Of a stretch of DNA of 42,709 nt, positions 4,691 to 41,077 are shown one piece after another. Numbering within the stretch: position 1 is the stretch's first letter; each line of letters begins with the position of its first letter. This DNA comes from a virus, in IMG/VR virus record IMGVR_UViG_3300032299_000934, positions 1 through 42,709 of that record, one strand, 5' to 3'. The position numbers and the translations under genes are program-made. The notes under the pieces were generated by a model. It was not told the origin of the DNA, ran no database searches, and saw only the letters and a list, made by a program, of their open reading frames with translations.

Positions 4691-7600
4691 CTACCTCAGG
4701 GCGGGCTGGCCCAGGGCCTCCATCAGATCCTGCAGCCGGTTGGTCTGCTGGGTGAACTGCTGCTCGGCGATGGCGGTGCGCTTCTGGCGCCAGTCCTGGG
4801 CGGCTGGGGTGCCGGATGCGTTGAGCTGATCGAGCGTGAGCAGGGAGTAGTGGTCGTAGATGCCCTGGATCATCCGCGATGCGGCCTGCTGCCGGCGCTG
4901 CGATGGCGGCATGTCGCGCACCTCCAGATCGGAAGTGGTGCCGGGCTGGTCCTGCATCCGCTGGTACACCGGATCGTTGAACAGGCTGGTGAAGGCCTCC
5001 ACGATCGTCTTGCCCTTGGCGTGCTTGCTCAGGAACGGCCCCAGGTCGATCGTGGCTGAGTCGCCCGCCTTGGTGACCACCACACCAGAGCCGGCGAACT
5101 GGTTGCGGAGGTCGATCGGGATCTCCTTCTTAAAGCTGAAGGTGACGTTGACCTTCCGGCCAGCCAGCTCTGCGCGGGCCTCCAGGGGGATGCTGCCCTT
5201 CACGGTGCCGAAGGCGTCGTTGTACTCCTTCTGCAGCTCTGCAGACATCGCCACGCCCTCCAGCCGGCGGGTGAGCAGCGGCAGCGGCAGCCGGAGCTGG
5301 CCCTGCGCATCGAGCTCGGCATAGACCCGCTGGTTGGCGCGGGGCCACATGCGGGGGTGGAAGCGGCTCTTGAGTGCTTCCTTCCAGTCGGCGCCGAACT
5401 CGAGCTGGATCGGCTGGCCCAGGAAGTCCTGCTCCTTGCGTGGTGCGCCGCCGGGGATGCCCAGCAGGGGGATGGTGCCGTAGGCCAGGCCGCGCAGGCC
5501 GCGTTCGGTCTTGGTCTGCCAGTCCTCCTCGCCCAGCCCGTAGCGCTCCTCGCCCAGCGGGTCGCGGTCCTGGTAGAGGTCAGCGCCACCGAAGCCGGTC
5601 ACGCGCTGCGCGTCGCGCATGACGCCGCTGAGCGGCAGCTGGCCCTGGCCCAGCCAGCCCACCAGTCGCGGCATTTCGTTCTCGGGGTCGAGCAGTGCGT
5701 CGATCAGCTGCTGCATCTGGCCGAAGCCGGTCTGGCGGATCAGCTGGCTGGTGAGCACCTGGGCGATCCCCCAGAAGGCGTTGTATTGGTCGAAGTTGGA
5801 GTAGTTGCCGCTGACGAAGGTTTCCTTGATGTCCTTCCACAGGAACAGCGTGTTGAGAATCGGCAGGCCGCCCAGGTAGGGGATGCCGGCGATGCTGTTG
5901 GGCTTGCGGCCCTCCAGCAGGAAGGCGCGGCGTGCCTCGGGCGGCAGCGGGCCGTTGCCCTCGATCAGCCCGGCCATGTCCAGCCCAGCGAACAGGCCCA
6001 GCAGCCCGCCCGTGGTGACCCAGCCGGCCTGCACCTTGGCGATCTGCTCCTGGGTGGGGTTCTTGCCGAAGATCACCTCGACCGTCTCGGCCAGCGGGCC
6101 GAAGGTGAGGCGGGTGTCGAACAGGAACTGGTTGAACGGCGCCCGCCAGTAGGGCACCAGCGAGTCAATGGCCCAGTGCTTGCGGGCGGTCATCACCGCC
6201 TCGTCGATGGCGGCAGGCAGCCCACCCTCGGGGGCGCTCTGCATCCGGTTGCGCAGGCTGTAGTCCATGGCGCCCTGGGCCTCGGGCGTGTCGAGCGTGG
6301 GGTAGCCGTAGGTGTTGCGAGCGCGATCGGCCGTGATGATCAAGCGGATCTCGTCGTCGCTGATGTCGCTGCCCTTGAGCTTGTGCTGCCGGCGGAAGGC
6401 CAGCACGTTCTCCTCGGTGGGCGCCAGCTGGTAGAAGGCGTTGTCCAGCTGCTTCTCCACCCACTCCTCGCGGCTGCGCTGGTCGAGCAGGCCCAGCTGC
6501 GCACCGTCGCGGCGTGCCTTGATCTCCAGATCGTTCTTGAGCTTGAACAGGAAGGCGTCGTAGCCGAGCACGCTGTCGGTGGCGCTCATCGCCCGCAGCG
6601 CCGGGGTGAGCACCTCATGCCGGCCGGTCCAGTGGAAGGCGAGCATCCGCGTGCCGGCCTGGATCTTGTGGACCGTGCGGGCCCAGTTCTCCGGCCGCAG
6701 CGGGCCGCCGGGCAAAAACGGCTCATCCAACAGGCCCTTCACCTGGGCGAGCAGCTGATCGTTGCCGCTGGCCCGGGGCCCGTAGGTGTCGAGGTTGCCA
6801 CCGAACGGTGCATCGCCACGGAAGAAGGAATCAGCCGCCAGCTCGCGCCAGGCACGCCGCACCCCGTCGTGGGAGTATTTGGCGCTCTCCCACGCCACCC
6901 GCAGCCCCTCGCCAAACGCTTCGCGGCTGAACTTCGTGCCGTTGGGGGTGAGGTTGCCGATGTTCTCGAACGCCTGGTGGGCAAACCCGTGGGTGTTGGC
7001 CAGCCAGGTGCCGAGCATGTTGGCCCGCACCTGGCTGCCGAAGTTGGTCAGCTGGGCGTCCTTCACCAGCGCATTGCCAAAGCGCATGTGGGTGTTGGCC
7101 CAGCCCTTGCCCAGGGTGACGTTGGGGTCGATCGAGTCGAGCATCGCCGCGATCCGCAGCTGCTTGATTGCCTCGGCGTCGCCGTTGTCGATCGCCTGGA
7201 TCACCTTGGCGAAGTGCTCATCCGGCTTCACGTCTGCGGCCTTGGCGCCCAGCGTCTGCGCTGCCTCGGCCATGTCGGGCATGAACATCTCCGGCCGGTC
7301 AAAGTCGGTCTGCAGCGACCGCAGGGCCTGGCCGGTGTTGCGCTTGGCAGTCGCCACGCTCCGCTCGGCAATCAGCGCTGTCTTGTAGGAGCCCCAGCCC
7401 CGCCGCTTGAGGCCATCAGGCACCTTGGTGCTGGTGCTGACCATGAACTGGTAAATCTGGTCCAACGTCTCCAGATAGCCCTCTTTGGCCATGTCGGAGA
7501 CGAACCGCAGGCGGGTCATCTTCTCGGCCAGGTTCATAAACCCTGCGGTGTTGTTGGCCAGGGCGGCGGCGATGGCGTCTGCGTCGATGTACTCCTTGTA

Positions 7601-29075: not shown

Positions 29076-29105
29076 CCTAGGAGGCACCTAGGCAATACCC
29101 CTAGG
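29076..29105. promoter_or_regulatory. CCTAGG cluster with palindrome B between RNAP and SSB
   Basis: CCTAGG occurs three times in 30 bp (29076, 29087, 29100). Positions 29078-29090 match TAGG-N5-CCTA with AGGCA as spacer, the same palindrome as at 33110-33122 and 36930-36953. The RNA polymerase TAG stop is part of the last copy. Confidence 0.5.
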
Positions 29106-31500
29106 AGAACAGATAGGGGTTCCCGCCGATCTCGCCCACCTTCAGCGTCCCCACCATCGGCGGCGCCGGCAGCCTCGCCCCAGCCGTGGCCTGGATTTCG
29201 GCCGTGATCTCAGCCAGCCAGTCCGGCCGGTAGAGCTCCCCGGTGCGCCACAGCAACGTGCTGTGCAGCCACTCGGCATCGCAGGGCGGCACCGCGAAGC
29301 AGTCGTGGTTAGGCAGCACCGTGACCCCTTTGTCTGCACCATCGCAGACCATTGCCCACACCAAGGCAGCGTCAAAGCTGTGGATGAAGTTGGCGGTGAT
29401 CGACCGGCCGGTCTCCACGGCGCTGAGCTTCCCCGGTGGTGGCGCATCGAGCAGGGTCTGCCAGCGGCGGGTGCCATGCAGCAGCGACTTGATGCCGCTG
29501 CTGGCGGTGAGCTCCTTGCCCAGCTGGATGGGCAGCCCCATCGGTGTCGTCCACCGCAGCGGCTGGTTCTTGGCACTGCAGCAGCGCACCACCGCCCGCA
29601 GCCAGGCCTGAAATGCCACTGCGCCAGCCAGCCGGGCGCCAACGGCCAGGCCAAACTTCCGCGCCAGGTAGCGGGCGGGTATCAGCCGCTCGAGCTCCAG
29701 CACCCCCAGCGACACGGTCCCCTCAGCGTCATCCAGCAGGGCCACCAGCTGCTCGGTCACCCCCAGCAGCTTCGCTCCGTAGACCGTGCTCATCACCGGC
29801 ACCTTGGCCATGGCCCGGCTGATGCCGCGCTCCAGCCACCAGCCCGCCAGCCGCTGCTCCTTGGCATCCCCAGCCTCCAGATCAGAGCGCAGCAGCAGCA
29901 TCACCTCCTGGGCCAGCTCGGTGTAGAGGTCGTGGCGGGTCGTGCCGACCAGGTTGCAGGCCCGGGCCAGGCCTCGATCCCGCAGCAGGGCGCCGATGAT
30001 CCCAGGGCCTGAGCTGGTCTGATCCAACCGCACCGGCTGATGGATGGACTGGTTGGGGTCCTCGATCCACCGCTGCAGCGCCCGGCAACATGCCAGGAAC
30101 TGCCACGGCTCCTTGGCATCACGCCACAGATGCACCCGCTCCAGGGGTTCCTCGGCCGCAGCCAACATGCGCTCCATCTGATCCCTGCCGAACTGCAGCC
30201 GGTCGGCCCAGCTGCCCTTGATCCCCCAGTGGATCGCCGCTGCCTTGAGGATCCAGTCGGCGGCCCGGTCATCGCACGGCTTGGCGTTGGCGATCAGCAC
30301 CTGAGCCTTTTCGTGGTCGGGGCCCTGGTGGGTGGTGAGCCGGTTCGCTGTGTAGACCCGGCCGCGGATGTCCATGCACCAGCTGAACCAGAGCGGCTCG
30401 CCGGCCAGCTGCTCGGCCTGGCGGATGGATCCCTCGATGCGGCTGCGGGCTTCCCGGCCCTCGATCCGGTCGCGGTGGAACGCCTGCTCCTGCTGATGCC
30501 AGCGGGCCATGGCCTCCTTGCCCACCAGCTCAACCGGCTTGGGCGGGGCCTCGGCCGGATCGCGCAGCAGCGGGAACAGGCCGCGCAGGTTCGCATCCCA
30601 GGCGATCCGCTGGTTCCCCACCATCCACGGATCCAGCATCAGCCCCTGGTCCTGGAGGGTGTTCACCACCTTCAGCGCCGGCTGCAGGGCCTGGGTGGTG
30701 AGGTAGTCGATCGGATGCCCCTTGCGGCTGCGCACCAGCAGCTCGGTGTTGCTCAGGTGCCCGCCGCCCGTCATCCCCTCCCACGGCCTGGGCGGGGTGA
30801 GCATGGGCAGCTTGCGAGCCTTGGCGGGTGTCGGCGGGTGGGCGGCGATGATCTCGGCCACCACGGGCGCCGGCTCAAGTTGCAGGCCGCGGCGCCCTGG
30901 CTTGGTCGTCGTTCGCAGTAGCTCGGTTTCGGTGGTGATGATCTCCAGCAGGAAGGCACCCACCTGGAAGCGATCGGCGGCACACCAGGGCTCCAGCTGG
31001 ATGCGCAGCTGCTCCAGCCGCGCCTTCGATGTCAGCCCCTTGCCGTGGCGGCGCCGGGCGATGCGGAGCAGGTCTTGGCCGCGGTCCTCGATCGGGAGCG
31101 CCCTGATCTCTGCCTCGATCGCTGCGCCGATGGCAGATGCCATGGCCCGGTGGCTGGCGGGCTTGCTGATCCGATCGAGCACCACCCCCAGGGCGACCGC
31201 AGCGATGGAGCGGGGCCCCTTCTCTCCCAGCTGGAACAGCAGCCACATGCCGGCGTGATACGGGCCGGCCACCTCGTCGCGGTTCAGCGCCTTGCCCAGC
31301 TTGTGCTCCAGCGCCAGCGCCACACGCTCGCCGTGGGCGTGGAACAGGGCCCGCCCGTATTCGGTGGCGCTCTCCTTCTCCTGCTGCTTGAGCTTGGCCC
31401 GGGCGATCCGTGAGCGGTTGGCGGCGGCCTCCTGGGCTGCCATTTCCAGATGCAGCTGACGCTCCTCCGAGGGGGTGGACGAATTGCAGGATGCAGACAA
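29101..31500 (-). CDS. DNA-directed RNA polymerase, T7-like single subunit
   Basis: A protein of about 799 residues with the catalytic motifs of the T7 family. Motif A is PVRLDQTSSGPGIIGALLRD (Asp near 490). Motif B is SRAMAKVPVMSTVYGAKLLG (Lys and Tyr-Gly near 560). Motif C is NFIHSFDAALVWAM (Asp near 707). MDIRGRVYTAN is also conserved. T7 RNAP is 883 aa; the N-terminal promoter-binding region is shorter here. The start is uncertain: TTG 31500 or ATG 31443. A TTG start would place dyad A (N3 variant) at codons 2-6. It should transcribe middle and late genes. Confidence 0.93.
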   Translation of the reverse strand: MSASCNSSTPSEERQLHLEMAAQEAAANRSRIARAKLKQQEKESATEYGRALFHAHGERVALALEHKLGKALNRDEVAGPYHAGMWLLFQLGEKGPRSIAAVALGVVLDRISKPASHRAMASAIGAAIEAEIRALPIEDRGQDLLRIARRRHGKGLTSKARLEQLRIQLEPWCAADRFQVGAFLLEIITTETELLRTTTKPGRRGLQLEPAPVVAEIIAAHPPTPAKARKLPMLTPPRPWEGMTGGGHLSNTELLVRSRKGHPIDYLTTQALQPALKVVNTLQDQGLMLDPWMVGNQRIAWDANLRGLFPLLRDPAEAPPKPVELVGKEAMARWHQQEQAFHRDRIEGREARSRIEGSIRQAEQLAGEPLWFSWCMDIRGRVYTANRLTTHQGPDHEKAQVLIANAKPCDDRAADWILKAAAIHWGIKGSWADRLQFGRDQMERMLAAAEEPLERVHLWRDAKEPWQFLACCRALQRWIEDPNQSIHQPVRLDQTSSGPGIIGALLRDRGLARACNLVGTTRHDLYTELAQEVMLLLRSDLEAGDAKEQRLAGWWLERGISRAMAKVPVMSTVYGAKLLGVTEQLVALLDDAEGTVSLGVLELERLIPARYLARKFGLAVGARLAGAVAFQAWLRAVVRCCSAKNQPLRWTTPMGLPIQLGKELTASSGIKSLLHGTRRWQTLLDAPPPGKLSAVETGRSITANFIHSFDAALVWAMVCDGADKGVTVLPNHDCFAVPPCDAEWLHSTLLWRTGELYRPDWLAEITAEIQATAGARLPAPPMVGTLKVGEIGGNPYLFS
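31484..31496 (-). promoter_or_regulatory. Dyad A (3-base spacer) at the RNA polymerase gene start; also a GGATGCA arm-type site
   Basis: The minus strand reads TCTGCA-TCC-TGCAA. It begins right after the TTG at 31500, or 40 bp before ATG 31443. On the plus strand it contains GGATGCA, the 7-mer repeated five times around the attP core. Confidence 0.45.
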
Positions 31501-31579
31501 GGTGCAGCATCTGTAGCGGGATGCACTTATTACACCCCACCCCCGCAGAGTTGATCAGTGGGCGTCTGACCGCAGTTCA

Positions 31580-31659
31580 GGCCGGACATCTGCAGGGATG
31601 CAGAACTGGAAAACGGATTATGAGTCCGCTGCTTTCACCAGATAGCTAGACCCCCGGCC
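31580..31659 (-). other. tRNA-like sequence (CAU anticodon arm) holding the attP core
   Basis: On the minus strand, 80 bases fold partly like a tRNA. They show a 7-bp acceptor-like stem (31653-31659 with 31580-31586, one G-U), a GCT/AGC D-stem, and an anticodon arm with loop CTCATAA. A hairpin CTGCA-TCCC-TGCAG stands in the T-arm position. The T-loop consensus is absent and four extra bases lie before the D-stem, so I do not call a functional tRNA. Bases 31612-31630 match the anticodon arm of tRNA-Met/Ile(CAU), the likely integration core. Confidence 0.6.
31590..31603 (-). promoter_or_regulatory. Dyad A copy in the attP region
   Basis: The minus strand reads TCTGCA-TCCC-TGCAG, a perfect copy. 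It overlaps one GGATGCA arm-type site and lies 90 bp upstream of the RNA polymerase TTG. Confidence 0.5.
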
Positions 31660-31672
31660 AGTTGTGGCAAGG

Positions 31673-31691
31673 CTTCTCGGGAAACGAGAAG
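31673..31691 (-). terminator. Hairpin downstream of integrase
   Basis: CTTCTCG-N5-CGAGAAG forms a perfect 7-bp stem 78 bp after the integrase stop. There is no T run, so it may be a weak terminator, a processing site, or part of attP. Confidence 0.35.
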
Positions 31692-31768
31692 GGTGCGGAG
31701 GATGCAGAAACCTGCACCCAGCCGCACCCAGTTTGCATCCTTCCGTGATCCGGTGGACGCATCCACAG

Positions 31769-32786: not shown

Positions 32787-33104
32787 TCAGATCCGCTGCA
32801 GCTGCTGGAGCAGCAGCCGCCCCTTAGGGCTCAAGCGGACCAGGAAGCGGCGCCCCTCCTCGGGGTCGCGTTCCACGGTGAGCAGCCGATAGCCGCGGTC
32901 GCCGTGGCGGTTGCGATCGCTGAGGGCGGCGACCGATCGGGACACGCTGGAGTTGGTCAGGTTCATGGCCTGCTCCAGGTGCTCGAACGTGGCCGGCTCG
33001 TTCAGGGCAACCTCAAGGAACAGCCGTGCATGGTGCAGCGGAAAACGGGTGGGGTCCTGGGTGGCAAAAGTGCCTAAAGCCAGGGCCAGTGCAGCGAGAT
33101 CCAT
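32787..33104 (-). CDS. MarR-like winged-helix regulator
   Basis: About 105 residues from ATG 33104. FPLHHARLFLEVALNEPATFEHLEQAMNLTNSSVSRSVAALSDR is a winged helix-turn-helix with the recognition helix around NSSVSRSVAAL. The wing follows (YRLLTVERDPEEGRRFLVRLSPKGRLLLQQL). It is one of two such regulators just before integrase, so control of lysogeny genes or of itself is likely. The palindrome TAGGTGACACCTA (33110-33122) sits 5 bp before the ATG, a typical autoregulatory operator position. A GTG at 33119 would place the palindrome inside the gene. Confidence 0.75.
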   Translation of the reverse strand: MDLAALALALGTFATQDPTRFPLHHARLFLEVALNEPATFEHLEQAMNLTNSSVSRSVAALSDRNRHGDRGYRLLTVERDPEEGRRFLVRLSPKGRLLLQQLQRI

Positions 33105-33109
33105 GGTCC

Positions 33110-33122
33110 TAGGTGACACCTA
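33110..33122. promoter_or_regulatory. Palindrome B upstream of the MarR-like gene
   Basis: TAGGTG-A-CACCTA is a perfect 13-bp palindrome with one central base, 5 bp upstream of the ATG. Sites with the same TAGG-N5-CCTA frame lie at 29078-29090 and twice at 36930-36953. Confidence 0.6.
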
Positions 33123-33134
33123 TTCCCTGGAGTT

Positions 33135-33148
33135 TGGCACCGCTGCAG
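33135..33148 (-). promoter_or_regulatory. Degenerate dyad A upstream of the MarR-like gene
   Basis: The minus strand reads TCTGCA-GCGG-TGCCA. Two bases of the dyad differ, but 13 bases are identical to the copy before the tail fibre (4648-4661). Confidence 0.3.
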
Positions 33149-33205
33149 AACAAGTCTCGAACGGCCGCCGTGGCGTTCCAGCCACAGCGACCACTCAAGC
33201 CAGCA

Positions 33206-33226
33206 CCCTGTGACAGGGAGCGTCAC
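33206..33226 (-). terminator. Nested hairpins after the second winged-helix gene
   Basis: CCCTG-TGA-CAGGG and GTGAC-N7-GTCAC overlap, 21 bp after the stop of 33247..33582. They are mutually exclusive stems with no T run; possibly a weak terminator or attenuator. The rest of the 33105-33246 gap holds palindrome B and a degenerate dyad A. Confidence 0.35.
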
Positions 33227-33246
33227 GGTGGCGAGCAGGCGCACCC

Positions 33247-33582
33247 TCATCCTTCAGCTAGTCCAAATGTACTAGCAATAAGTTCCCTGCCGTCTGGGGT
33301 CAGTTCCAGCCGAAACCCGGTCCGGTCCGGGTGTTTCGACCGCTGCACCAGCCCCAGCCTGGACCGGGCCCGCCCCTTCCCGATCCGGCCGCGACCGATC
33401 AGGTGGGCCACGTTCCGGTTAGCGGTTTGGCGCACGACGCCCATCCGCCGGCATAGCTCGGCGCTGCAGTCTACACCTGTTGCGATGTGTAAAAGCGTCT
33501 CAACTGCACTGGCGCTGATGGCCTGGTGGTGGTGTCTGATGCCGCGCAGCATGGCTGCGACGTCTGCAGGGGTGGCGCTCAT
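33247..33582 (-). CDS. Winged-helix DNA-binding protein (MarR-like, 111 aa)
   Basis: It starts MSATPADVAAMLRGIRHHHQ after GGGGGAAG. The helix-turn-helix is around DCSAELCRRMGVVRQTANRNVAHLIGRG, with a wing GLVQRSKHPDRTGFRLELTPDGRELIAS. The fold resembles the 32787..33104 protein but with low identity. It overlaps the membrane protein upstream by 4 bp. Candidate regulator of the lysis-lysogeny choice, inferred from its place in the integrase block. Confidence 0.7.
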   Translation of the reverse strand: MSATPADVAAMLRGIRHHHQAISASAVETLLHIATGVDCSAELCRRMGVVRQTANRNVAHLIGRGRIGKGRARSRLGLVQRSKHPDRTGFRLELTPDGRELIASTFGLAEG

Positions 33583-39907: not shown

Positions 39908-39921
39908 TTGCATGGGTGCAG
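39908..39921 (-). promoter_or_regulatory. Dyad A variant before the small terminase
   Basis: The minus strand reads TCTGCA-CCCA-TGCAA (one mismatch), preceded by ACG as in the copy before the capsid gene, 2 bp before ATG 39905. It fills the gap between two divergent genes. Confidence 0.5.
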
Positions 39922-39937
39922 ACGTCTTGCCTTGATG

Positions 39938-41077
39938 ATGGCACCGAACAGCGTTCGCTTCACCGATGAGCGCTGGCTGGAGTTCTGGGAGCACTACAAG
40001 GGTTTGCCGCATCAGCGTGATGCGGTGATCAAGCTCGGCGAGCACATCCGCCAGGCGGACCGCGGCTTGCTTGTTGAGACTGCTGAGTGGGTCGAGGACT
40101 TCAGGACAGACTGGGGCTGGGCGGCGATCCGCGAGCTGGCCGCCAAGGCCGGCGCCAAGCACCCGGACCTGGTGGCTGCGCAGTGGGCCTTGGAGTCTGG
40201 CTGGGGCGGCGCGATGAGCGGCCGCAACAACCCTTTTGGGCTGAAGGGTGAGGGCACGGTCAGGCGCACCACCGAGGTGGTCAACGGCAAGGAGGTGCCG
40301 ATCGAAGCGGAGTTCAGGGACTTCCCTTCGATCAAGGCTGCTGTCGAGCACCTGGTCAGCCGGTGGTACATGGACTACACGGCTCCGGGTGGCAAGGAGT
40401 ATCGAGGTGTCAACCGCGCTGGTAGCCGCGACGAGGCCGCACGGCTGCTGGTGAAGGAGGGCTACGCCGACGACCCCGCCTACGCCAAGAAGCTGATCAA
40501 GCTGATGGACGACAACGCCCCAGCGCGGCCGGCCGCGGCCGGCGGCCTGGATCCCAGAGGCAGCGAGGAGGCCGGGCTGGTGGGGCCCAAGATGAAGGCG
40601 CCGGTGAAGTCAGGCGACAGCTACCTGCTGGTGAACGACCGCGACCAGGACATGGAGGCCTACGACCACACCGGCAAGCTGCTGTGGAAGATCCCGTGCC
40701 TGGCGCGAGGCCAGGGGCCGACCAACGAGTGGCGGAAGCGCAACACGGACACCCCGCCGGGCCTCTACAAGATCGGCAAGGTCTACGCCGATTACGAGCA
40801 GAACCCCAAGCCGCCGCAGTCGGACACGGCCGAGTCCTACGGGTGGTACTCCTTCGACATGGAGGGCCTGGAAGGGCAGGAGTCCAGCAACGGCCGGAGC
40901 GGCATCATGCTGCACGGCGGCGGGACTGCCTGCGGCTGGCCGGGCGCCTGGGCGCCAAGGCAGGTTCTACATCCCACTTTGGGATGCGTGCGCATCCACA
41001 ACACCGACCTGCGGGACAAGGTGCTGCCCCTGGTCCGCAAGGGGATCGTCTACATCGGGGTGTTTCAGGAGCGCTGA
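39938..41077 (+). CDS. Two-domain endolysin: glucosaminidase-type plus L,D-transpeptidase (YkuD)
   Basis: About 379 residues. Residues 60-180 look like a glucosaminidase-type (GH73/LytD) domain: AAQWALESGWGGAMSGRNNP with Glu86, then FGLKGEG and AEFRDFPSIKAAVEHLVSRW. A linker follows (190-225). Residues 230-379 form a YkuD-type domain: SYLLVNDRDQDMEAYDHTGKLLWKIPC, TPPGLYKIGK, MLHGGG with His326 and HPTLGCVRIHN with the catalytic Cys350. Both active-site sets look complete. The first domain would cut glycan strands. What the second does in lysis is open: cutting or exchanging cross-links. Confidence 0.85.
   Translation: MAPNSVRFTDERWLEFWEHYKGLPHQRDAVIKLGEHIRQADRGLLVETAEWVEDFRTDWGWAAIRELAAKAGAKHPDLVAAQWALESGWGGAMSGRNNPFGLKGEGTVRRTTEVVNGKEVPIEAEFRDFPSIKAAVEHLVSRWYMDYTAPGGKEYRGVNRAGSRDEAARLLVKEGYADDPAYAKKLIKLMDDNAPARPAAAGGLDPRGSEEAGLVGPKMKAPVKSGDSYLLVNDRDQDMEAYDHTGKLLWKIPCLARGQGPTNEWRKRNTDTPPGLYKIGKVYADYEQNPKPPQSDTAESYGWYSFDMEGLEGQESSNGRSGIMLHGGGTACGWPGAWAPRQVLHPTLGCVRIHNTDLRDKVLPLVRKGIVYIGVFQER

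Follow-up and report, generated by a model that had tools for sequence, protein, structure and literature searches.

The closest described systems are the T7-like cyanophages P-SSP7 and S-TIP37, which integrate experimentally at tRNA-Leu, with both int and attP being required in S-TIP37, in a laboratory study that observed integration without stable lysogens (PMC8776855). The attP of 11 of 13 integrase-bearing T7-like cyanophages, in four groups, matches the first half of tRNA-Leu as a perfect 39-bp identity (PMC8776855). A different strategy, tRNA-dependent lysogeny, is known from Fionnbharth and other mycobacteriophages, which integrate into a tRNA gene and supply a replacement tRNA from the phage (PMC10865867). 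According to Zhao and Williams (2002), as cited in PMC6563490, integration into the 5′ part of tRNA genes is less frequent than integration into the 3′ part.

The DNA considered here (the window) is the whole 42,709-nucleotide stretch of IMG/VR record IMGVR_UViG_3300032299_000934, a freshwater T7-like (Autographiviridae) cyanophage in which Pfam and PHROG matches identify a T7-type RNA polymerase, a tyrosine integrase, a MarR-type regulator, an ArdC-like anti-restriction protein and a T7-type terminase. Its closest isolate by integrase is the freshwater Synechococcus phage S-SRP02 (64%). The order MarR-int-attP-RNAP is that of P-SSP7 (NC_006882 map), and the window shares with P-SSP7 and S-TIP37 both an RNA polymerase gene downstream of int and attP and a putative attP, directly downstream of int, that consists of the first half of a host tRNA, identity ending at the anticodon loop. 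Their half is a perfect match to tRNA-Leu, whereas that of the window belongs to tRNA-Ile(CAU), carries a compensated D-stem pair and is accompanied by another arm heptamer (Table 1). Elsewhere in the window, a small open frame just upstream of the MarR gene (33120-33250, minus strand) is conserved in most relatives, and an endolysin-like protein (39908-41077, plus strand) fuses a glucosaminidase domain to a YkuD L,D-transpeptidase domain.

We propose, at a probability of about 0.93, that 31489-31764 is an attP, at which the tyrosine integrase would bind arm sites on both sides of the core and exchange strands, probably within the anticodon loop, with the host tRNA-Ile(CAU) gene. The phage 5′ half, lying on the integrase side, would be joined to the host 3′ half in attR to give an intact copy of this essential tRNA, and at attL the host would retain its promoter and 5′ half, directed towards the phage RNA polymerase gene. 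The window's own phage presumably uses this site. An earlier note on this DNA had called the region a candidate attP with a link to a CAU tRNA and arm-type sites, beside an intact integrase; relatives, host tRNA genes and the prophage junctions of relatives support the call, and the integrase frame is indeed intact.

Table 1. Features of the int-attP-RNAP region of the window and tRNA types found in related viral contigs
Feature	Positions	Strand	Remarks
T7-type RNA polymerase gene	29101..31500	-	PF00940 E 3e-46; phrog_414 E 3e-124; P′ side of attP
Distal P′ arm sites: +82 (TGCG), +104 (GGATGCA 31519-31525), +123, GGATGCA 31489-31495	31489..31547	-	Pattern matches; relatives share the offsets +82, +104 and +123
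Proximal P′ arm dyad (TGCATCCCTGCA)	31591..31602	-	TGCA at +27 and +35 from anticodon stem; constant spacing in all three types (Ile, Leu, Tyr)
5′ half of host tRNA-Ile(CAU), nt 1-42 (nt 1 = 31655); putative attP core and tRNA-restoring extension, integrase side	31614..31655	-	40/42 identity to G008 tRNA
Anticodon loop CTCATAA (anticodon 31620-31622), inferred crossover region	31618..31624	-	Where phage-host identity ends in relatives
P arm: GGRTGCR-type sites in inverted array, among them GGATGCA 31700-31706 and 31734-31740	31688..31740		From sequence; lineage-specific repeated heptamers in relatives
GGATGCGTCCACC motif at integrase end of attP	31752..31764	-	Widely conserved in relatives
Tyrosine integrase, 328 aa	31769..32755	-	Intact ORF; Phage_integrase E 6e-20; Pfam/PHROG matches
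MarR-family regulator	32787..33119	-	phrog_9665 E 5e-19; upstream of int
Type (a), 5′ half of tRNA-Ile(CAU)			Window, L004-L010, L037, L039, L040, L060
Type (b), 5′ half of tRNA-Leu(UAA)			L013, L015, L016, L019, L021, L022, L029, L061, L062, P-SSP7
Type (c), 3′ half of tRNA-Tyr then intact tRNA-Thr, copy of host tandem tRNA-Tyr/tRNA-Thr			L017, L025, L026, L028
Type (d), complete tRNA-Ile(CAU) plus degenerate core elsewhere			L012

The half-tRNA was compared with the 43 distinct tRNA predictions from the complete Cyanobiaceae genome G008, whose third CAU tRNA (GGGGGTCTAGCAATCTGGTGAATGCAGCGGACTCATAATCC...) it matches throughout nt 1-42. The match to the anticodon arm described in the earlier note (31612-31630, minus strand) is therefore real but was understated, since identity spans 31614-31655; the outcome that the note had named as refuting, a core shared by no host tRNA beyond the anticodon arm, is contradicted by a host gene sharing the entire 5′ half. 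The other two CAU tRNAs of G008 we take to be the initiator and elongator Met types, which by elimination makes the third a tRNA-Ile(CAU), of the kind found in Cyanobium-type picocyanobacteria; of the two targets first suggested, tRNA-Met and tRNA-Ile, only the latter stands. Both mismatches to the host fall at positions 12 and 23, which form one D-stem pair, A-U in the host and U-A in the phage, and this compensation suggests selection on the restored tRNA. When phage nt 1-38 were joined in silico to host nt 39-73, as in a chimeric attR, ARAGORN recognized a complete CAU tRNA, and it found none in the phage sequence alone, in the attL chimera or, as a complete gene, anywhere in the window.

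Mean pairwise identity in the segment that ends at the anticodon loop is 0.94 among CAU-type phages and 0.90 among Leu-type phages; the two 110-bp flanks reach 0.61 each in the former, and the flanks reach 0.53 and 0.49 in the latter. In relatives, the identity between phage and host breaks off at the loop or directly behind it (L009 ACCG, P-SSP7 AACTAA, L017 TCACC), and because it stops there in L009 and P-SSP7, crossover can be placed by inference in or beside the anticodon loop. A promoter and terminator scan found neither a sigma-70-type promoter ahead of the half-tRNA nor a terminator in the region, so that the restored tRNA would have to rely for its expression on a promoter that is weak or acts by read-through; P-SSP7 has, by reading, a TATAAT-like box ahead of its half-tRNA.

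Among 400 genomes of the family Cyanobiaceae, 71 match the tRNA search pattern, and almost every one of them has this 5′ half, varying between C and T at nt 6 and between A and G at nt 31, with A12-U23; these host versions have the acceptor GGGGGTC or GGGGGCC and small anticodon-stem differences. The pair U12-A23 occurs in three of the family genomes (G020, G093, G121), but with a different acceptor and anticodon stem, and the window's exact combination is present among the family genomes in a phage contig only. The exact phage half was absent from sequenced hosts, a scan of 84,980 species returning only this one phage contig again, L040, inside a Cyanobium MAG. U12-A23 is common to eleven phage contigs, the window included, which represent at least two integrase lineages (that of the window and that of L037, whose integrase is nearest S-SRP02), and the half-tRNA of L060 has A12-U23. 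Since other viral contigs (L200, L206, L213) have tRNA-Ile genes that are complete and share both the acceptor and U12-A23 with it, the phage half may derive from such a viral gene or from an unsequenced host.

The catalytic residues of the integrase, R193, K218, H276, R279, W302 and Y311, the R-K-H-R-(H/W)-Y set, are invariant in comparison with 17 relatives. The N-terminus is predicted by AlphaFold2 to adopt a beta-beta-beta-alpha arrangement (strands 2-8, 11-18 and 21-27, helix 30-47; pLDDT of the block about 81-89), and these three strands and helix constitute a predicted arm-binding domain. Fold matches in the PDB include Tn1549 Int and lambda Int, with TM-scores that are low because confidence in the model is moderate (mean pLDDT 75). 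Given the type of N-domain predicted and these two matches, binding of the integrase to the arm sites is likely. The window thus resembles the heterobivalent lambda-type systems in having a predicted arm-binding N-domain, a catalytic tyrosine domain and a core with phased arm sites, but differs from them in that the arm heptamers are lineage-specific and no IHF or Xis site was identified.

GGATGCA occurs at 31489, 31519, 31596 and 31700 on the plus strand and at 31734 on the minus strand, all five copies lying where the earlier note had placed them, and the claim that they are far above chance is borne out for the cluster, as none of 200 dinucleotide shuffles of the attP region reached five copies of any 7-mer. 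In the window as a whole, four distinct 7-mers attain a density of five copies within 260 bp; apart from GGATGCA these are GGCAGCA, CTGCTGC and CCAGCAG, which are built from CAG/GCA-type triplets and lie in gene-dense stretches. Over the whole window the count of GGATGCA is ordinary (14 copies versus 10.8 expected), so that only the cluster stands out; a genome-wide promoter element was rejected on this count, and the suggestion that the integrase or a partner might act on promoters through the heptamer finds no support, the word being at chance frequency outside attP. With the initial G of the anticodon stem as origin, recurrent TGCA sites lie on the P′ side at +27, +35, +82, +104 and +123 across Ile, Leu and Tyr types, all five being present in no single phage. 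Together with looser variants, GGATGCA forms an array phased to the core, which is kept in relatives whose integrases are only 54-65% identical, and lineages have their own repeated words: GGATGCA in the window, GGGCAGA (seven copies) in L060, CTGCAGA (four copies) in L017 and L025, and CTAGCG (four copies) in P-SSP7. In several other relatives no single 7-mer exceeded the shuffles.

Integrase relatives are encoded by 28 viral contigs, and the types in Table 1 combine those having a recognisable attP with contigs from other searches; as relatives share ancestry, contig counts do not represent independent events. In types (a) to (c) the tRNA part invariably lies on the side of the integrase, with AGCGGA-(C/T)T(C/T)A(T/A/C)A(A/G)-TC or a close variant of it as core; no core was found in the stretch inspected of L002, L023, L024, L030 and L031. 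The four type (c) phages, which are free phages, carry an intact tRNA-Thr(GGT) and the 3′ half of tRNA-Tyr after int, and because they copy the host tandem, their integration would restore both tRNA genes. One integrase family thus uses both polarities, with 5′ halves of tRNA-Ile and tRNA-Leu and the 3′ half of tRNA-Tyr, a difference from the 5′-part elements of Zhao and Williams (2002), as cited in PMC6563490, with which the window shares a 5′ half supplied by the mobile element.

Other arrangements were seen around the same tRNA. In L012 a complete tRNA-Ile(CAU) (6234-6306) matching that of host genome G093 lies between int and a degenerate core, which resembles tRNA-dependent lysogeny; the window is like that system in that loss of a tRNA would be made good from the phage genome, but would restore it by junction, without a complete tRNA. 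A second group of phages (L179, L180, L181, L184, L188, L190, L192, L193, L195-L197, L204, L235), with integrases about 26-39% identical, shares the tRNA-Ile(CAU) 5′ half downstream of int; the word repeated behind it is a different one, mostly AAGATTG. In a third group (L210, L214, L216, L223, L230, L240, L246, L249, L251), a complete tRNA-Ile(CAU) comes immediately after MarR and int, and the int frame either abuts the tRNA or runs slightly into it.

Integrated relatives can be recognized from their junctions. G401 (C1:1-41324; the contig of L018, L280 and L281) is 41,324 bp long; RNAP occupies 261-2651, and int is close to the opposite end. On the left, a partial tRNA-Thr and the 3′ half of tRNA-Tyr as far as AGCGGATTTACAGTC precede the phage P′ arm, and at the right end, beside int, the same repeat continues into a complete tRNA-Tyr, the only complete copy, and host upstream sequence. 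As read from the sequence, G401 is an integrated prophage at tRNA-Tyr with both attL and attR readable. A host contig of G007 holds an attR in which tRNA-Tyr and tRNA-Thr are bordered by aroQ-like host sequence on one side and by int on the other, and a 1.3-kb match to the same locus of G008 ends with tRNA-Thr. For the CAU type, one of 60 host tRNA-Ile neighbourhoods examined contains an integrase remnant: in G344 (C97; L118) an intact tRNA-Ile(CAU) is preceded, at a distance of about 0.11 kb, by a degraded integrase closest to that of L060 (70%). This would fit an old attR of a CAU-type phage, but is suggestive only, because the 5′ half of that tRNA is the local host version. Contig-end matches in G281, G275, G269 and others were rejected as occupied attB sites, all being intact host tRNA genes. 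Among the genomes searched (one per species, with virus records that may be fragments) there was neither an integrated copy of the window's phage nor an intact tRNA-Ile(CAU) lysogen.

Could the half-tRNA belong to something other than an attachment site? The earlier note had read the region as a degenerate cloverleaf, an 80-base tRNA-like fold in which the dyad takes the place of the T-arm. The Rfam tRNA model does score 25.3 bits over 31593-31655, but that is below the gathering score of 29 and comes mainly from the true 5′ half, and ARAGORN is negative. The 7-bp acceptor-like outer stem (GGCCGGG/TCCGGCC) exists in the window and otherwise in its closest relatives only; no such pairing is found in L009, L040 or L060, and L037 has only an unrelated one. 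The fold was rejected on these grounds: a genuine 5′ half is followed by non-tRNA attP sequence, the supposed T-arm is the phased P′ arm site, and the folding appears incidental, so that a functional tRNA-like RNA is highly improbable. We give equally little credence to a decayed phage-borne tRNA gene that lost its 3′ half and has no role in integration. Many viral contigs do carry complete tRNA-Ile(CAU) genes of the window's type, but decay would have had to stop at the same point, the anticodon arm, in both Ile and Leu types, always between int and RNAP, while the kept half stayed conserved far above its flanks, and the junctions of integrated relatives fall at exactly this place of tRNA-Tyr.

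A more serious question is whether the GGATGCA/TGCANCC repeats function as operators, those of the neighbouring MarR-type regulator or of the RNAP promoter for instance, instead of as integrase arm sites. They lie just upstream of the RNA polymerase gene, whose 5′ end overlaps the last arm site, and the array is partly palindromic; moreover, regulator and integrase diverge together, and sequence comparison therefore cannot separate the two as binder. Nevertheless, in each of the three tRNA types the sites keep a constant spacing from the recombination core, which they flank on both sides, an arm-binding domain is predicted for the integrase, and P-SSP7 has its own repeat, CTAGCG, with four of its six copies in 20 kb inside attP. 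We consider operators unlikely. A TGCA upstream of MarR was rejected as an operator, as by reading it falls in the conserved small open frame. Integration at tRNA-Ile(CAU) through attP remains the preferred reading, and it is carried by features demonstrated at the level of sequence, namely the half-tRNA match, the compensated pair, the in-silico cloverleaf, the phased arm sites and the tRNA-Tyr junctions of relatives.

Relative to the P-SSP7/S-TIP37 layout, the novel elements are tRNA-Ile as target, the compensation in the D-stem, the variant with tRNA-Tyr and tRNA-Thr, and prophages evidenced by sequence; among the papers covered by our literature search there was no published tRNA-Ile attP in cyanophages. 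The laboratory study of those phages found integration and no stable lysogens (PMC8776855), whereas relatives of the window show prophage junctions (G401 and G007, and a possible fossil in G344). If the half-tRNA is kept for tRNA function, as the 12-23 pair and the sharp conservation boundary suggest, then survival of the integrated host matters. We tentatively suggest, as a possibility that we hold at somewhat less than even odds, that the half-tRNA is under selection for tRNA function, that T7-like cyanophages of freshwater picocyanobacteria are truly temperate, that this integrase family re-targets tRNAs of either polarity, and that in Ile and Leu types the phage RNA polymerase is placed behind a host tRNA promoter. 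Re-targeting would then work by keeping whichever tRNA half, or tandem, is on the integrase's own side, and integration of the Ile and Leu types would put the RNA polymerase gene under the reach of the host tRNA promoter. These observations add the essential tRNA-Ile(CAU) as a new putative attB and bear on whether T7-like cyanophages are ever truly temperate, a matter that the side rule, the readable prophage junctions and the compensated pair make directly testable in Cyanobium-type hosts.
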